Assembly (NCBI GenBank): GCA_011192055.1
Contig: DUES01000178.1
Coordinates: 7,746-13,428, forward strand
DNA from: Dehalococcoidia bacterium
GTDB lineage: Bacteria > Chloroflexota > Dehalococcoidia > Dehalococcoidales > Fen-1064
Direction: 5' to 3'
Length of the DNA: 5,683 bases
The position numbers were made by a program, and so were the translations under genes. Positions 1 to 5,683 of the stretch are shown in pieces. Within the stretch, counting starts at the first letter, position 1. Each line of letters opens with the position of its first letter. The notes under the pieces were generated by a model, which was not told where the DNA came from, made no database searches, and was given only the letters and a program-made list of their open reading frames with translations.

Positions 1-308
1 ACACTCTTGGAGGCAGAACTCAGGAGCATGTCGCCATCCATGAGGTAGCGCATGCACTTACCGGGGTCAGCCTCTGGTACTACTCGGATAGCCATACCGG
101 TATCAGCTTCCATAACTGATGCCCAGCTGACGTACTTGGCAAGTCCGCTCTGGCCTGCAGCCGCGATATGCACCCGCTCAGGCCATTGCCACTCCTGATT
201 TACTTCCTCTGGCTGGACCACATCCTGAGCACAACTGGCAAACGTCAAAGTACTGGTAATCACAATCAGTAAAGCTATTACCAATGGTTTTAAAAAGTTT
301 CTACTCAA
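1..308 (-). CDS. TAXI/NMT1-like TRAP-type solute-binding lipoprotein, N-terminal part (runs off the left edge)
   Basis: The first 102 codons are visible and the rest lies outside the window. The start is TTG at 308. It is preceded by a clear ribosome-binding site (AGAAGGGA at 318-325, 9 nt away), and an in-frame TAG lies just upstream, so no earlier start is available. Residues 5-25 form a lipoprotein signal peptide: a basic start, a hydrophobic run (LVIALLIVITSTLTF), then a lipobox FASC with the acylated Cys at residue 26. The mature part begins with an acidic linker and then HIAAAGQSGLAKYVSWA and TGMAIRVVPEADP. This resembles the opening beta-strand and small-residue ligand loop of TAXI-family receptors (the extracytoplasmic subunits of TRAP transporters). 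The ligand cannot be inferred. It lies 40 bp downstream of ahbD with no terminator between, so it is probably co-transcribed. Lipoprotein assignment is strong; the family is moderately sure. Confidence 0.65.
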   Translation of the reverse strand, partial: MSRNFLKPLVIALLIVITSTLTFASCAQDVVQPEEVNQEWQWPERVHIAAAGQSGLAKYVSWASVMEADTGMAIRVVPEADPGKCMRYLMDGDMLLSSASKS

Positions 309-348: not shown

Positions 349-1443
349 TCAACGCAGTGGTTCGTATATACAGTAAGGTTCCGTTTCCAGATAATCGCCG
401 GTGGCTTCATACGCTCTTGCCCGGCAGCCACCGCATATTCTTTTATACTCACAGGCACCACACTTGCCTTTGATATTAGACAGGTCTCTCAGTTGCCTGA
501 ATAAAGGAGCGTTAGCCCATATTTCGCTAAAGGGCTGATTTCTGATGTTACCTGCTTCGACATCCAGGTAGCCGCAACCCTGTACTCTTCCCTGATGCGA
601 TACAAAACAGAAGCCGGTACCAGCAAGACAACCTCTGGTGATAGTCTGCATAGGATGATTGGTGGACATGGAATTCGAGGATTGATAGTCATGTGCTTTA
701 ATTTGCCTCTGTTTCAAAATCCTCATATAGTGGGGCGCGTCTGTAGGTTTAAAAAATATCCTGTCCCCCAGCTCCTTCTGTTTGTCGTATATCCAGTTCA
801 AGGTTTCCTCATATTGCTGTGGGGACAGCTCTTGAGATTCGAGATCTTTGCCCCGCCCGGTGGGAACAAGCATAAAGGGGTGGAAAGCCATGGCACCAAC
901 TTTTAGAGAAAGGTCCAGCAGGTCGGTCAGGTAATTAACGTTTAGCTTGGTTATAGTGCTGTTAATCTGAATTTCAATGCCTGCATCGAGAGCGTTGGCG
1001 ATACCATTCAGTGCTTCCTGATAAGCTCCCTGTCTACCACGAAACTCATCCTGAAGCTTGGGAATGGGGAAATCTATGCTTACCGCCAGGCGGGACACCG
1101 GCACCTTTTTCAGTTCAGTTGCCAGTTCTCTGGACACTAGAGTGCCGTTGGTACCCATGACCACCCTGAGCCCTTTACCCACACCATAGCCCGCTATCTT
1201 CAGGACATCCGGTCGCACAAGCGGTTCACCACCGGTGAGAATAAGTATCGGTTTTCCGACTTTGATAATCTCATCGATGAGTTGATAGCACTCTTCAAGG
1301 GAGAGTTCATCTTCATATTGTTCGTTTTCTGATGAGCCACGACAGTGGGCACAGAAAAGATTGCAGCGGCGGGTAATTTCCCAGGCTACGAGATGCAGTC
1401 TTGGTTCAATGATATCCTTATTAAGTTGTTTGCCAATGCTCAT
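349..1443 (-). CDS. ahbD: Heme b synthase AhbD (radical SAM/SPASM Fe-coproporphyrin III decarboxylase)
   Basis: This is a 364-residue radical SAM enzyme. In the alternative heme pathway, AhbD oxidatively decarboxylates two propionates of Fe-coproporphyrin III to vinyl groups, giving heme b in the anaerobic cytoplasm. The [4Fe-4S] motif CNLFCAHC supplies Cys27, Cys31 and Cys34, and GGEP at 71-74 is the SAM-binding motif. The N-terminal context LHLVAWEITRRCNL is AhbD-like rather than AhbC-like. The C-terminal SPASM/twitch part has Cys272, 279, 290, 328, 331, 337, 340 and 358, with CGGCRARAYEATGDYL near the end, enough for auxiliary clusters. Length is normal and nothing is broken. The start ATG at 1443 is chosen over an in-frame TTG 33 nt upstream because a GGGGAG site precedes it and because it overlaps the stop of the preceding ahbC remnant as ATGA. 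NirJ or another heme-modifying paralogue is possible but fits less well. Confidence 0.9.
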   Translation of the reverse strand: MSIGKQLNKDIIEPRLHLVAWEITRRCNLFCAHCRGSSENEQYEDELSLEECYQLIDEIIKVGKPILILTGGEPLVRPDVLKIAGYGVGKGLRVVMGTNGTLVSRELATELKKVPVSRLAVSIDFPIPKLQDEFRGRQGAYQEALNGIANALDAGIEIQINSTITKLNVNYLTDLLDLSLKVGAMAFHPFMLVPTGRGKDLESQELSPQQYEETLNWIYDKQKELGDRIFFKPTDAPHYMRILKQRQIKAHDYQSSNSMSTNHPMQTITRGCLAGTGFCFVSHQGRVQGCGYLDVEAGNIRNQPFSEIWANAPLFRQLRDLSNIKGKCGACEYKRICGGCRARAYEATGDYLETEPYCIYEPLR

Positions 1444-1667
1444 TTGATTCCAATCTCCCCGTCGGTAAGATAGCAAACGGGGTCTTCTGCCTATATGTCA
1501 CCATAGACTACCTCTACACGCTCGCGAAGGTTACAGCGGCTGGTGCAATTCCAGATAACCTTTGGTGCAGGATTTAATTCATTTATGGAACTGTGTGACA
1601 AATCACCGTAGTGAAAGCTGTTGCTTGGGCTGTAAGTATCATACAGAAGGCGGTAAATAGAAATCAC
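1440..1667 (-). pseudogene. ahbC: Internally deleted ahbC remnant (radical SAM 12,18-didecarboxysiroheme deacetylase)
   Basis: A single 76-codon frame runs from GTG at 1667 to TGA at 1442-1440, interrupted once by TAG at 1493-1491 (codon 59). Residues 1-48 look like the N-terminus of AhbC: ISIYRLLYDTYSPSNSFHYG, then PKVIWNCTSRCNLR, where Cys45 is the first cysteine of the radical SAM motif. The following residues, RERVEVVYGDI, stop, AEDPVCYLTD, align without gaps to the C-terminal tail of AhbD in this window (RARAYEATGDYL ETEPYCIYEP; shared R.R, GD and P.C). Thus the head and tail of one enzyme are joined near codons 46-48 (about 1524-1532), and roughly 300 codons are missing. Intact AhbC removes two acetate side chains to give Fe-coproporphyrin III, the AhbD substrate. 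The gene begins with a GTGA overlap with the regulator and ends with an ATGA overlap with ahbD, so its place in the operon is original. The product cannot be active. AhbC identity is from remembered family features. Confidence 0.8.
1455..1460 (-). promoter_or_regulatory. Ribosome-binding site deciding the ahbD start
   Basis: GGGGAG lies 11 nt before the ATG at 1443, slightly long but the only purine-rich site nearby. It sits inside the last codons of the ahbC remnant, as expected for translational coupling through the ATGA overlap. The upstream TTG at 1476 has no such site, so it is not used as the start. Confidence 0.6.
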
Positions 1668-2314
1668 AGAGACTTATACTCTTTCTCAACGTTAGGAAAT
1701 TGTCTATGTTGCTGATGCGTTGCTACCAGAGAAACCAGAGCTTCATCCATTACCCGTGCTACCAGTGGAATGGATGCTGCAACCCGGCTACTGTGAGCCT
1801 CTCTCTTCTTCATTAGATGGGCTATCGCCTTCATAATCGGGTCACGATGAAGGATAAACGCCTCTACTGAGTCGGTGAGCGGTAAACCCAGACTAGCCAG
1901 GGTTTCTCCAAACCCTCGCCCCACCTCGCAGGCACGCTCCAGGGTACGCTCCCTTTTCGCAGGTTCGTTAATATACCTGATAATAACATCGAGCATATTA
2001 CGACCAAGGTGTGCCAGACCAAACTTTTCTTCTTTATTAAGACAGCTATACCAGTCCTTTGTAGAAAGTGATGTCCGTCCAATCTCGCCGTGCAACTTAC
2101 TAGTAGCCTCAAGTTCGGCAATCAAGTCCTTTACACCAACAGCTTTCGGGTGTGAATTCATAAATTTCTTTAGTTCTGTTTTCGAGTAACGACGATGGCC
2201 TCCCGGTGTAACAAAGGCTTTAATCCTGCCTTCATCTGTCCATTGCCGCAGAGCTACCTCACTTACTCCCAGGATGCCGGATGCTTCACTTATAGTTACC
2301 AGAGTTTCATCCAT
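1664..2314 (-). CDS. MerR/excisionase-type HTH regulator with an RsbRD_N-like helical C-terminal domain
   Basis: This is a 216-residue predicted transcription factor. Residues about 6-53 form a winged HTH of the MerR/excisionase type: VTISEASGILGVSEVALRQW followed by the wing motif TPGGHRRYS. Residues about 86-205 are helical; LGRNMLDVIIRYINEP, VGRGFGETLASLGLPLTDSV and AFILHRDPI resemble the RsbRD N-terminal sensor-like fold, as I recall it. No cysteine-rich metal or cluster site typical of classical MerR proteins is present. The ATG at 2314 has a GAGAGG site only 4 nt upstream. An in-frame TTG at 2326 is the alternative but lacks a site. The stop overlaps the start of the ahbC remnant (GTGA), making this the first gene of the ahb operon and a likely pathway regulator. 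A perfect promoter with an inverted repeat lies directly upstream, suggesting autoregulation. The ligand is unknown; heme or a precursor is only a guess. It is not AhbA/AhbB, which are AsnC/Lrp-like. Confidence 0.8.
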   Translation of the reverse strand: MDETLVTISEASGILGVSEVALRQWTDEGRIKAFVTPGGHRRYSKTELKKFMNSHPKAVGVKDLIAELEATSKLHGEIGRTSLSTKDWYSCLNKEEKFGLAHLGRNMLDVIIRYINEPAKRERTLERACEVGRGFGETLASLGLPLTDSVEAFILHRDPIMKAIAHLMKKREAHSSRVAASIPLVARVMDEALVSLVATHQQHRQFPNVEKEYKSL

Positions 2315-2351
2315 TAGCCCTCTCAAATTAGCTGGAAGAGCATGTAATATC

Positions 2352-2455: not shown

Positions 2456-2965
2456 TCAGACAAAGCGGGATATATGTTCGGATAGAAATCGGGCTACCCG
2501 GGTGCTATCAAACGGCCATGCGTATACTATCGTTACTTGTGGATGGAGTTTACTGAATTCATCAATTATAGATGGTATATCCTTTTCAGCATGTTCACCG
2601 CCTCTGGTCATCATCGGCGTAACGACGATTATCTTACTGGTATTCATATTCACAGCAGATTGCAGAGCTACATCCAGACTTGGAGCACAAAATTCATTGT
2701 ATCCCACAATCACTTCGTACCCTGTAACCTCACTTAGACGTGTTGCCAGTTCCTGAGACGCAGCGTGGAAAGGATCATTCCGGGCATTGCGTGGCCAGTT
2801 TCTCATCTTGGTATCAAGTAAAGAATACCGGTCTTGAAATGATTCATGGTTACTGCCATTCACTTCTGCAACACGCGAATGCAGTCTGAAGAATTCAGCG
2901 AGTTCCTGTCTGGGAAAATCCCTGGGAGGCGTGCCATGCATAGCCAGTACAATAACTGTTTTCAT
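2456..2965 (-). CDS. CbiX/SirB-family sirohydrochlorin chelatase (Fe or Co)
   Basis: This is a 169-residue cytoplasmic class II chelatase-like protein, inserting Fe2+ (siroheme) or Co2+ (cobalamin) into sirohydrochlorin. Two conserved histidines fit the active site of small CbiX: His10 in VLAMHGTPP, and His125 in TPMMTRGGEHAEKDIP. GYNEFCAPSL (88-97) corresponds to the family's conserved E.PS(L) segment. Compared with minimal CbiX (about 120-145 residues), there is an extra stretch of roughly 40-45 residues after the first histidine (about 17-63). The ATG at 2965 is the first start after an in-frame TAG; its ribosome-binding site is weak. It sits just upstream of the ahb operon, so making the siroheme that feeds the Ahb route is a reasonable inference. 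The metal cannot be read from sequence. The operon promoter lies after its stop, so it has a separate or shared upstream promoter that I could not identify clearly. Confidence 0.8.
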   Translation of the reverse strand: MKTVIVLAMHGTPPRDFPRQELAEFFRLHSRVAEVNGSNHESFQDRYSLLDTKMRNWPRNARNDPFHAASQELATRLSEVTGYEVIVGYNEFCAPSLDVALQSAVNMNTSKIIVVTPMMTRGGEHAEKDIPSIIDEFSKLHPQVTIVYAWPFDSTRVARFLSEHISRFV

Positions 2966-3410
2966 ATAACATATATTAACCTATCTTCATCCGTTCTGAA
3001 AATACAGATTCTTAAGCAATAGCATGTGTCAAACAAAACTTGTAATGTGATTAGACATAGGCAAAGGTCTTAGGGAAGGTTTGGTGTCCACTATGGATAT
3101 TCAACTTCAGTAGTCGAGGAAAAGTGCCTTGTCAAAGCACTACGTAGTGGTAAAATCACCAAGTATATATTACTGTACGAACTTAAAAACCTTGAAGTTT
3201 AGCGCAAGCGCAACTTGACGCCCTGCTACAGGCTAAAAACCAAGCGGTATATCTGGCCGACGTCGAAACCATGATAGATGTATTTTATCAGGATGTACAG
3301 ACCAACCTGGATAACTGCCCTTTTAAGACAAGCGACTGGCGCTATTCACTGGTATGTTCCTGTAATTCTGTCCATTGCAACGGGACTTTCTGATTTCTAA
3401 TTGAAATCCA
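2966..3410. other. 445-bp stretch without a confident gene; possible decayed plus-strand coding remnants
   Basis: No RNA gene or convincing promoter was seen. Two plus-strand open stretches have protein-like composition. The first, 3074-3199 (TAG at 3200-3202, 42 codons), contains VVEEKCLVKALRSGKI, which resembles the VVDE.ALVEAL.SGKI segment of D-2-hydroxyacid/phosphoglycerate dehydrogenases. It has no ATG and the residues after it do not follow the family. The second, 3196-3390 (TGA at 3391-3393, 65 codons), is in another frame and reads AKNQAVYLADVETMIDVFYQ and then CPF...CSC...HC; it is not recognised and its only ATG is internal (about 3271). Both run opposite to every gene here. They may be parts of one frameshifted pseudogene or of two, or chance. 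Confidence 0.35.
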
Positions 3411-4547
3411 CTACCACTGCACAAACATCGGCATAACCACGTGGGTATAATTGTCCACGTCGACAGGCCGGATAACGCCGGGGCTGGAAGGATTGGTTGT
3501 TTCCAGTATCACCTGTTTTTCACGAAGGACACTGAGTACGTCGATAAGATATCTGCCATTGAAAGCAATCTTTGCTTCTTCTCCTACAACCGTAGCATCC
3601 AGCTCGCCTACATCCTCACCAAGTTCTTCGGAACGGGCAGAAATGGTTACCTTACCTGTTGTCAGTTCACCATTCCCGGGTGTCGCCACCAGGCGTACGA
3701 TACCGCTGCCGTCACGGGCAAATATTGATGCCGTACGTGTTGCCCTCAGGAACTCGGCCACATCCACTACTACCCTGGTGTTATAACTCTGTGGAATTAA
3801 CTGGTTATACTGGGGGAATGTTCCCTGGACAAGCTGTGACACCAGTTCCGTATTCTTCATGTGAAACAGGACCTGGCTTTTGTTAGGGTTGACTGTTATG
3901 TCCACCACTTCTTCATCATCGGCAATCAAACGGTTTACTTCGGCCAGGGTCCGTCCCGGGATAATGACCTCAACCTTCTCGCTGACAGGAGCGGCCAAGG
4001 GCAGTTTGCATACGGCCAGCCGGAACCCGTCGGCAGCAGCCAGTGTCAGCATATCACCTTCAAAGATAGCATCGACACCGGTGAGTACGGGACGTGACTC
4101 TTCCGTGGCAACCGCTATAACAACCTGGGTAATAGCCTGCCTGAGAATGTCCACTGCTACCTTGGTATTGATACCTTCGCTGACCTTGGGTATCGGCGGG
4201 AAGTCCTTAGCATCAACTCCACTGATTCTCGCTTCGAACCGGGCACACTTGACCTCAAGGGTTTTTGCACTCGCCGGCAGGTTCATATCTACCTTGTCGC
4301 TGGGCAGAGAACCAACGAACTCGGTGAGCAGTCGTGCCGGAACCGTGATGTCCCCCTCTTCTTCTACCTTAGCCCCAATCCAGTGGCTAATGGCCATTTC
4401 CAGGTTGGTAGCAACCAGCTTCAAGCGGGACTCATCGGTAGCCAGAAGCACATTATTGGTTATTGGTAATGTGGTCCTGGTAGCAACTGCTCTCTGAACG
4501 ATACTGAGACCGCGGTTTAGATTTTCCTGCAGACATGATAATTTCAT
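3411..4547 (-). CDS. dnaN: DNA polymerase III beta subunit (sliding clamp)
   Basis: The 378 residues make a full-length beta clamp, the ring-shaped dimer that holds DNA polymerase III and other polymerases and repair proteins on DNA. Three repeated domains are expected at about 1-122, 125-250 and 253-378. Recognisable motifs are MKLSCLQENLNRGLSIVQRAV at the start, EESRPVLTGV (149-158), AADGFRLAV (171-179), GTFPQYNQLIP (242-252), FNGRYLIDVL (329-338) and the C-terminal HVVMPM (369-374), which contributes to the partner-binding pocket. The chain ends in four further residues (FVQW) after MPM, where many clamps end with RL or similar. The ATG at 4547 is supported by GGGGG 6 nt upstream. It has its own promoter at 4587-4615 and follows rdgB after 120 bp. 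No dnaA or recF is next to it, unlike the common origin arrangement. Confidence 0.97.
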   Translation of the reverse strand: MKLSCLQENLNRGLSIVQRAVATRTTLPITNNVLLATDESRLKLVATNLEMAISHWIGAKVEEEGDITVPARLLTEFVGSLPSDKVDMNLPASAKTLEVKCARFEARISGVDAKDFPPIPKVSEGINTKVAVDILRQAITQVVIAVATEESRPVLTGVDAIFEGDMLTLAAADGFRLAVCKLPLAAPVSEKVEVIIPGRTLAEVNRLIADDEEVVDITVNPNKSQVLFHMKNTELVSQLVQGTFPQYNQLIPQSYNTRVVVDVAEFLRATRTASIFARDGSGIVRLVATPGNGELTTGKVTISARSEELGEDVGELDATVVGEEAKIAFNGRYLIDVLSVLREKQVILETTNPSSPGVIRPVDVDNYTHVVMPMFVQW

Positions 4548-4667: not shown

Positions 4668-5285
4668 CTATTTCCCATTGGTCCGGTTACTTTTCCCTGA
4701 CTCTGTCAGGGCACGGTAAACTTCTTGTGCAGCCAGACCCCGGTGGCTGATACGGTTCTTTGATTCCATGGTTAACTCCGCCATGGTCCTGTCCATAGAC
4801 GGAATGTAAAATACAGGGTCATAGCCAAAACCGCTCTCACCCCTCGGCTCGGACAGTATCAGTCCGCTGCAATCCCCGTAATAAAGCTCAATTTCTTTTC
4901 CGGGTGAAGCGAGAGCAATTACACAGCGGAAATGTGCCGTTCGCTCCGACCATGGAACATCCTTTAACCTTGAAAGCAGGTAATCAACCCTGTCCCTGTC
5001 CGTGGCATTTTCTCCGGCAAAACGTGCTGAGAGCGGGCCGGGTCTCCCGTCCAGGGCATCCACTTCCAGCCCCGAATCATCGGCCAGGGTCAGCAGTCGG
5101 CTCTCTTTTACAATGATACTTGCTTTCAGGCTGGCGTTCTCTTCCAGGCTGCTCCCTACTTCTTCAACTACAGTTGTAATACCTTCATCCGCAAGTGATA
5201 CTATCCGATAGGGTATTCCTTCAAGCAGGCTCCTGTACTCACGAACTTTGCCTTTATTACCGGTCGCCAGGAGCAGTTTAGGCAT
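4668..5285 (-). CDS. rdgB: XTP/dITP diphosphatase (RdgB/HAM1 family)
   Basis: This 205-residue house-cleaning enzyme hydrolyses the noncanonical nucleotides dITP, XTP and ITP to monophosphates and pyrophosphate, keeping deaminated purines out of DNA and RNA. Family motifs appear in order: the nucleotide/phosphate motif LLATGNKGKVRE (5-16), EENASLKA (48-55), the metal and catalytic segment LADDSGLEVDAL with Asp69/Asp70 (67-78), GRPGPLSARFAG (80-91), FGYDPVF (153-159) and KNRISHRGLA (176-185). Length is typical (about 190-205), with a short polar C-terminal tail. The ATG at 5285 has GGAG 9 nt upstream. It follows fbp by 62 bp with no evident terminator or promoter, so the two are probably co-transcribed, and precedes dnaN, a sensible nucleotide-quality and replication pairing. 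Confidence 0.96.
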   Translation of the reverse strand: MPKLLLATGNKGKVREYRSLLEGIPYRIVSLADEGITTVVEEVGSSLEENASLKASIIVKESRLLTLADDSGLEVDALDGRPGPLSARFAGENATDRDRVDYLLSRLKDVPWSERTAHFRCVIALASPGKEIELYYGDCSGLILSEPRGESGFGYDPVFYIPSMDRTMAELTMESKNRISHRGLAAQEVYRALTESGKSNRTNGK

Positions 5286-5347: not shown

Positions 5348-5683
5348 CTAGATACTGGTAAATCTATCGCCAATCTTCTCCATAACCTGCGGCATCGTGG
5401 TATACTCCATCTCGTCCAGAGGCAAACGGTGCGGCTCAAACGGACCGTGCTGCCTCATGTAGTCGGCGACGTCATTGGCACGCTGTCGAGCATTATCATA
5501 TGATTTATCAGCGAACATATCACGTGGTCCAACCAGCTTTCCATTGCTCAACTGGAAGCCTGCAGCCACCACCCTTGGAGGACCGTCAAATCGAGTCGGT
5601 ATGCTGTCCGGAATTGATACCGGCATCAGAGGACCGTAGTGTGAGCCCCTCATCCAGCCTTCTACCAGCAGCGGAAAAGCGAA
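5348..5683 (-). CDS. fbp: Fructose-1,6-bisphosphate aldolase/phosphatase (type V, archaeal-type), C-terminal 111 residues
   Basis: The frame is open to the right window edge, so only the C-terminal part is seen (full members are about 360-400 residues). This bifunctional gluconeogenic enzyme condenses dihydroxyacetone phosphate and glyceraldehyde-3-phosphate and then dephosphorylates the product to fructose-6-phosphate, Mg2+-dependent and in the cytoplasm. Diagnostic segments are EGWMRGSHYGPLMPVS, PTRFDGPPRVVAAGFQLSNG and the tail GPFEPHRLPLDEMEYTTMPQ, which are highly conserved in the family. The methionine at 5653 is internal, not the start: codons for FAFPLLVEGW precede it in frame. The enzyme occurs in archaea and in thermophilic or anaerobic deep-branching bacteria, which is part of the case for a Chloroflexota-like host. 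Confidence 0.93.
   Translation of the reverse strand, partial: FAFPLLVEGWMRGSHYGPLMPVSIPDSIPTRFDGPPRVVAAGFQLSNGKLVGPRDMFADKSYDNARQRANDVADYMRQHGPFEPHRLPLDEMEYTTMPQVMEKIGDRFTSI

Follow-up and report, generated by a model that had tools for sequence, protein, structure and literature searches.

The window analysed here, a stretch of 5,683 nucleotides of Dehalococcoidia DNA, carries on its minus strand, in order of transcription, the C-terminus of fbp, rdgB, dnaN, a CbiX-like chelatase gene, a MerR-like regulator gene, a remnant of ahbC, a complete ahbD and the start of a putative TAXI gene. The features are as follows.

5348..5683, - strand: fructose-1,6-bisphosphate aldolase/phosphatase, C-terminus (flank; truncated by the window end)
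4668..5285, - strand: rdgB/ham1 (flank)
3411..4547, - strand: dnaN (flank)
2456..2965, - strand: CbiX-like chelatase (PF01903, E=1.1e-13)
1664..2326, - strand: MerR-like/HTH_17 regulator, immediately upstream of ahbC in relatives
1440..1667, - strand: ahbC pseudogene remnant, 48 N-terminal and 27 C-terminal codons fused, followed by the original stop
1524..1532, - strand: deletion junction in Asn-Leu-Arg codons, with 942 bp absent relative to 26 relatives
1491..1493, - strand: TAG codon in frame, at a position that is Trp in 142 of 142 intact AhbC compared
349..1443, - strand: ahbD, full length, with TIGR04545 heme b synthase as its top family
3..308, - strand: putative TAXI-type TRAP solute-binding protein, N-terminal part only (window edge), 72% identical to that of locus L001

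Comparison of 2966-3410 with the related loci introduced below gave no useful match. Within the gap between the CbiX-like gene and dnaN, 3023-3410 has no frame of 50 amino acids or more and is possibly decayed sequence. Upstream of the regulator, the 62 bp at 2346-2407 are 76% identical to their L001 counterpart and may be a conserved promoter or operator.

The ahbC remnant

A search with AhbD, one genome per species, was used to collect loci: the best 80 of 231 relatives gave 80 loci, and 29 Dehalococcoidia loci (L001-L029) were examined closely. An ahbC frame lies directly upstream of ahbD in 27 of the 29; it is full length in 25, and interrupted by a contig end in L003 and L024. The contigs of L002 and L019 hence lack the ahbC position, as they start just ahead of the AhbD match, by 24 and 143 bases. 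The frame at 1440-1667 occupies this orthologous place, with ends homologous to those of ahbC, which is more than a chance resemblance.

An earlier note, made from the letters of the window alone, had described a short frame whose two ends overlap the stop of the regulator (GTGA) and the start of ahbD (ATGA), and had read it as ahbC cut to its two ends; both the frame with its overlaps and the reading hold. Codons 1-48 resemble an AhbC-type N-terminus, and the remaining codons an AhbC-type C-terminal tail. Alignment with L001 and L004 places the missing sequence in a single block of 942 bp (314 codons, against the roughly 300 estimated in the note), and in each of the 26 relatives in which both Asn-Leu-Arg (NLR) sites are present, they lie 942 nt apart. 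Because both sites share one frame, the deletion is in frame without any need of selection, and to that extent the claim of an in-frame deletion stands; the resulting frame, however, is not open, and the TAG that closes it had been overlooked. The translation of 1440-1667 spans 75 residues, and since codon 59 is TAG (1491-1493), the predicted product has 58 amino acids instead of 75. Identical stretches at the two deletion ends measure 10 bp in L001 and 5 bp in L004, and range from 1 to 11 bp among the 26 relatives; a deletion between short repeats, by slippage or recombination, is thus plausible. Of the radical SAM cysteine motif, the first cysteine alone survives before the junction, and a full-length radical SAM plus SPASM protein, as a functional AhbC would be, is no longer encoded (314 codons gone, TAG in frame).

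Family models recognize the N-terminal end poorly: the 58-amino-acid frame matches NCBIfam weakly (TIGR04054, E=0.0016; TIGR04347, E=0.018; TIGR04546, E=0.025) and has zero matches in Pfam. A direct comparison with the L001 AhbC, by contrast, gave a strong match (58% identity, E=1e-14). The C-terminal end is AhbC's own tail. It aligns locally to the L001 AhbC tail with a score of 108, whereas its top local score against the AhbD of the window is 27 and falls outside the AhbD tail; the gapless alignment to that tail claimed earlier was not borne out. A search with the 58-amino-acid frame for other truncated ahbC proteins returned zero candidates, and a further copy of the deletion was therefore not seen. 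The start of ahbD sits 47 nt past the TAG, and the ahbC tail retains a G-rich stretch resembling a ribosome site, for which reason it may have been kept for translational coupling to ahbD.

The surviving ends have also decayed. Relative to 31 surviving columns that are invariant in 25 relatives, the remnant differs at seven (C to Y, G to S, D to N, R to H, two A to V, and W to stop). When each relative was held out in turn as a control, 22 of the 25 differed at 0/31 and the other three (L018, L020, L029) at 1/32. Each of the seven changes goes back to a G:C to A:T transition in its codon, and some of these codons carry additional silent third-base changes. A wider comparison used 142 intact AhbC, made up of 117 of the 120 matches listed (of 7867) and 25 locus proteins, the two sources overlapping in part. 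At 30 columns conserved in at least 98% of these, the remnant differs at eight, while 129 of the 142 differ at none and 13 at one; its identity to any of the 142, among the matches listed, does not exceed 69%. A codon branch model gave an omega of 0.205 for the remnant branch against a background of 0.079 (2dlnL 3.87). As this signal is weak and a control branch, L004, gave a similar one (4.84), we do not treat the model as main evidence. Neutrality along the whole remnant branch was rejected (2dlnL 7.10), and therefore inactivation of ahbC appears to have come late on the branch.

With disabling changes and lost constraint in homologous ends at the orthologous place, it is near certain that 1440-1667 is an inactivated ahbC pseudogene. 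The remnant alone is an ordinary pseudogene; its interest lies in the surrounding ahbD-transporter cassette.

AhbD and the operons of its relatives

The ahbD gene of the window is intact, as the note had stated: it is full length, and its product shows 0 changes at 104 columns that are invariant in 28 relatives. The difference from the remnant (0/104 versus 7/31) is significant by Fisher's test (p=1.9e-5). Both genes have had the same time since the death of ahbC, so AhbD has been held under constraint while ahbC decayed. The omega of the AhbD branch leading to the window (0.096) equals the background. Among 83 families, TIGR04545 scores highest (469.1 bits), and the scores are alike (469-473 bits) for the window, L001, L007, L008 and genome G076. 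The curated cut-off of this family is 500 bits, of which the window AhbD falls short, as do those of L007 (470) and L008 (473), both of which belong to full operons. AhbD enzymes convert Fe-coproporphyrin III to heme b (PMC10452713 and PMC11306076, in excerpt), and their motif is given in the excerpted text of PMC10452713 as CX3CX2C plus C-terminal CX2CX5CX2CX17C cysteines. The window AhbD carries the corresponding cysteines 27, 31, 34 and 328, 331, 337, 340, 358; like the L001 and L007 proteins, it lacks the first of the cysteines that make up a full SPASM set. No relative of AhbD was found in a viral collection.

Intact AhbC proteins of L001 and L004 score highest with the NirJ1 family TIGR04054 (547-548 bits) and next with the AhbC family TIGR04546 (529-531 bits; cut-off 650, which both fall under). 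The product of AhbC, a 12,18-didecarboxysiroheme deacetylase, is Fe-coproporphyrin III, and the JGI name of protein P0018 agrees with this function.

What follows ahbD differs between the relatives and the group to which the window belongs. The operon of L007 reads regulator-ahbC-ahbD-ahbAB-met8-hemA-hemC-cobA/hemD-hemB-hemL, and each of the genes after ahbD (a fused ahbAB, a met8 of CysG N-terminal type, and hemA to hemL) exceeds an NCBIfam cut-off. In L007, AhbA and AhbB form a single protein (9117-10097); most relatives have two PF17805 stretches close together. An AhbAB match follows ahbD in 22 of the 29 loci, L007 among them, and is absent in L001-L004, L013, L015 and L025, the contig of L015 stopping inside ahbD. 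The gene after ahbD in L001-L004 and L013 encodes instead a TAXI protein, and the TAXI start of the window lies at the equivalent place. A TRAP permease comes next in L001, L002 (partial), L003 and L013; the contig of L004 stops inside the TAXI gene. In the AhbD tree, these five loci group with the window in a single clade (support 100/99, or 99/97 with extra outgroups). The window shares with the known Ahb pathway (AhbC/NirJ1, AhbD) the order regulator-ahbC-ahbD, and its AhbD matches in type and score those of Dehalococcoidia that have the complete operon; it departs from the pathway in having a dead ahbC and a TAXI gene instead of ahbAB after ahbD. L025 (genome G220) has an intact ahbC-ahbD pair and no TAXI gene at the locus; its genome gave no AhbAB, HemB or HemC match, and an IS1595-type transposase lies about 1.3 kb downstream.

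Profile searches of 28 whole locus genomes (5 of the clade, 23 others) extended this contrast, with completeness unstated and the clade genomes not independent of one another. AhbAB (PF17805) was matched in 0/5 clade genomes versus 22/23 others, HemB in 1/5 versus 21/23, and HemC in 1/5 versus 20/23. Four clade loci (L001, L003, L004, L013) nonetheless retain AhbC in genomes without AhbAB. Genome G001 keeps, on contig 128 (L119), met8-hemA in one frame, hemC, cobA/hemD, hemB and hemL, with no ahbAB, and is therefore not a full tetrapyrrole auxotroph. This set adjoins a cbiD truncated by the contig end, which suggests that G001 is probably a corrinoid producer.

The CbiX-like gene is less regular. 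Close relatives (66-71%) were found in G001 and G201 among the 28 genomes searched, and genome G076 has one (56% identity) beside its regulator and ahbD, while three of the five clade genomes (G202, G123, G211) gave no match. The gene may therefore be optional, or misleading as a guide to function.

The transporter paired with ahbD

Among 197 genomes of the class, 28 have an AhbD of at least 480 bits; 25 of these also have AhbC, and 23 have AhbAB. The three without AhbC are G053, G076 and G121. In G053, AhbAB follows AhbD, and because the contig is short, with AhbD beginning at its base 399, this genome is uninformative on AhbC. A further nine genomes have an AhbD of 300-480 bits, of which only G015 lacks AhbC, its AhbD lying at a contig end. 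Matches below 300 bits, which might represent radical SAM enzymes of another kind, were excluded from the AhbD count; when all 79 genomes with any AhbD match are taken, 17 lack AhbC at E<=1e-60. At that threshold, AhbC occurs in 64 genomes of the class.

G076 and G121 have neither AhbC at E<=1e-60 nor a PF17805 match, and both place ahbD beside the transporter. In G076 (a contig 1,725,728 bases long, for a stated genome size of 1.7 Mb) a CbiX-like gene is followed by the regulator, ahbD, the permease and TAXI; in G121, ahbD, permease and TAXI stand together. The order of permease and TAXI is reversed relative to the window clade, and the AhbD tree places these two genomes on a branch separate from that clade. 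To explain the pairing of ahbD and transporter, two or more changes on this tree are hence required, which could be separate gain, transfer or loss. Across the 197 genomes, the TAXI subfamily (E<=1e-30) occurs in four (G001, G123, G076, G121), and in 4/4 it lies beside ahbD. AhbAB is missing in all four of these genomes versus 1/24 of the other genomes with AhbD (p=2.4e-4, the genomes being related and not independent). The subfamily is rare, with 132 proteins at E<=1e-20 among 5.8 billion (120 of the 132 listed). Members of this subfamily (P0148, P0150) also occur in spirochaetes, including Oceanispirochaeta, whose TAXI gene (P0148) is 62% identical and for which a closed genome has been announced (PMC7380536, in excerpt).

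The assignment to the TAXI type draws on a predicted structure of the L001 protein (pLDDT 92.6, from a 71-sequence alignment). The best seven PDB matches of this model include the TAXI proteins 8u79, 9ibo, 1us4 and 8s4j, with 4ddd and 9ibp ranking ahead of them; TM scores normalized by query length are 0.49-0.55, and glutamate is present in several of these structures. A sequence search of solved structures with the TAXI protein found nothing. Together with a single fused permease (TIGR02123), above cut-off in L001, L003 and L013, the modelled fold points to a TAXI-type TRAP system like those of TtGluBP and VcGluP, of which the window itself holds the N-terminus of the binding protein alone. 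The subfamily differs from these in its rarity, in its link to ahbD, in falling below the TIGR02122 cut-off of 84.35 bits (L001, 68.1; L013, 64.5; the G076 protein unmatched at E<=1e-50), and in some 90 extra C-terminal residues, mostly helical in the L001 model.

Source of the AhbD substrate

A clade without AhbAB that keeps AhbD, and at four loci AhbC, beside an importer suggests salvage of an intermediate. The reading we tentatively favour, which may well prove wrong, is that AhbD performs the last step by itself and makes heme from imported Fe-coproporphyrin III or coproporphyrin III, ahbC being dead. The clade would obtain its heme by letting a late tetrapyrrole intermediate enter through the TRAP-TAXI system. 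In the window lineage this would be Fe-coproporphyrin III, or else coproporphyrin III, into which the CbiX-like chelatase would load iron, and AhbD alone would turn the Fe-coproporphyrin III into heme b. Because its product would be supplied from outside, AhbC would become dispensable, and ahbC would have lost its 942 bp by slippage or recombination between the short NLR-site repeats. Uptake of the intermediate was among the options named in the earlier note, which was right to count it; what the note did not see is the wider setting, in which the clade has a TRAP transporter where ahbAB and the early tetrapyrrole genes would otherwise stand, along with the decay of invariant residues and the other genomes that have ahbD and the transporter with no AhbC. 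One bacterium fed by the coproporphyrins of another has been reported in the excerpted text of PMC11139205. A literature search, covering papers in excerpt, found none linking AhbD with a TRAP transporter. Against a porphyrin ligand stands the fact that the TAXI ligands described in PMC11574862 (in excerpt) are small acids, for example glutamate, far smaller than a porphyrin.

The small-acid ligands would sit better with recruitment of the AhbD and AhbC of the clade to other chemistry, for instance another tetrapyrrole or another TRAP-imported compound, and so would the persistence of AhbC in L001, L003, L004 and L013 despite the loss of AhbAB from their genomes. We consider such recruitment decidedly improbable, as the TIGR04545 scores of the window, L001 and G076 are like those of L007 and L008, and the C-terminal cysteine motif of AhbD is retained. 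An ordinary end-stage loss of the pathway, in which finished heme is taken up or little needed, ahbD is next to go and the transporter is unrelated, is unlikely, if somewhat less so. Heme auxotrophs are common, also among Chloroflexota (PMC11139205, in excerpt), and Dehalococcoides is stated to have lost tetrapyrrole synthesis completely (PMC7506110, in excerpt); aquatic and sediment lineages are further examples of heme auxotrophy. The clade resembles them in lacking AhbAB (5/5) and HemB or HemC (4/5), and the cytochrome c assembly family PF01578 is found in 1/5 clade genomes versus 16/23 others (p=0.06). It differs from auxotrophs by pathway loss in that AhbD is kept, is tied to a specific transporter and has lost none of its invariant residues while ahbC has lost seven; moreover, AhbD persists in two other genomes without AhbC or AhbAB matches, and the transporter tracks ahbD.

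That an unlinked second AhbC, or a NirJ-like paralogue, feeds AhbD in a pathway that still runs seems very improbable to us. Two copies do occur in 2 of the 64 genomes with AhbC (G030, G108), but the other 62 have a single one, the clade genomes G001 and G123 having one each, and AhbAB, which such a pathway would also require, is unmatched in all five clade genomes. The least credible account, by a wide measure, is an assembly collapse, which the note had put forward as the plain alternative, or a chimera, either of which would have joined the two NLR sites in an intact ahbC. Short sequence common to both ends exists in the relatives; at 11 bp or less it is short for a collapse by an assembler, the surviving ends hold a nonsense codon and six further invariant-residue changes that arose independently of the deletion, and none of the 142 intact AhbC, drawn from the best 120 of 7867 matches and the locus proteins, is more than 69% identical to the remnant.

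A broader version of the salvage reading is rather doubtful as it stands: that the locus belongs to an undescribed heme salvage cassette, made of a dedicated TAXI-TRAP importer, in some lineages a CbiX-like chelatase, and AhbD alone, which would have taken the place of the siroheme-dependent pathway in two or more separate groups of Dehalococcoidia, one of them caught, in the window, while it is losing AhbC. If salvage is true, heme synthesis would erode from the front in these bacteria, with the last enzyme alone retained. It would also put a name to the transporter and the traded intermediate for a group of uncultured anaerobes, and would thereby offer an explanation of cross-feeding that can be tested, along with a candidate culture supplement.
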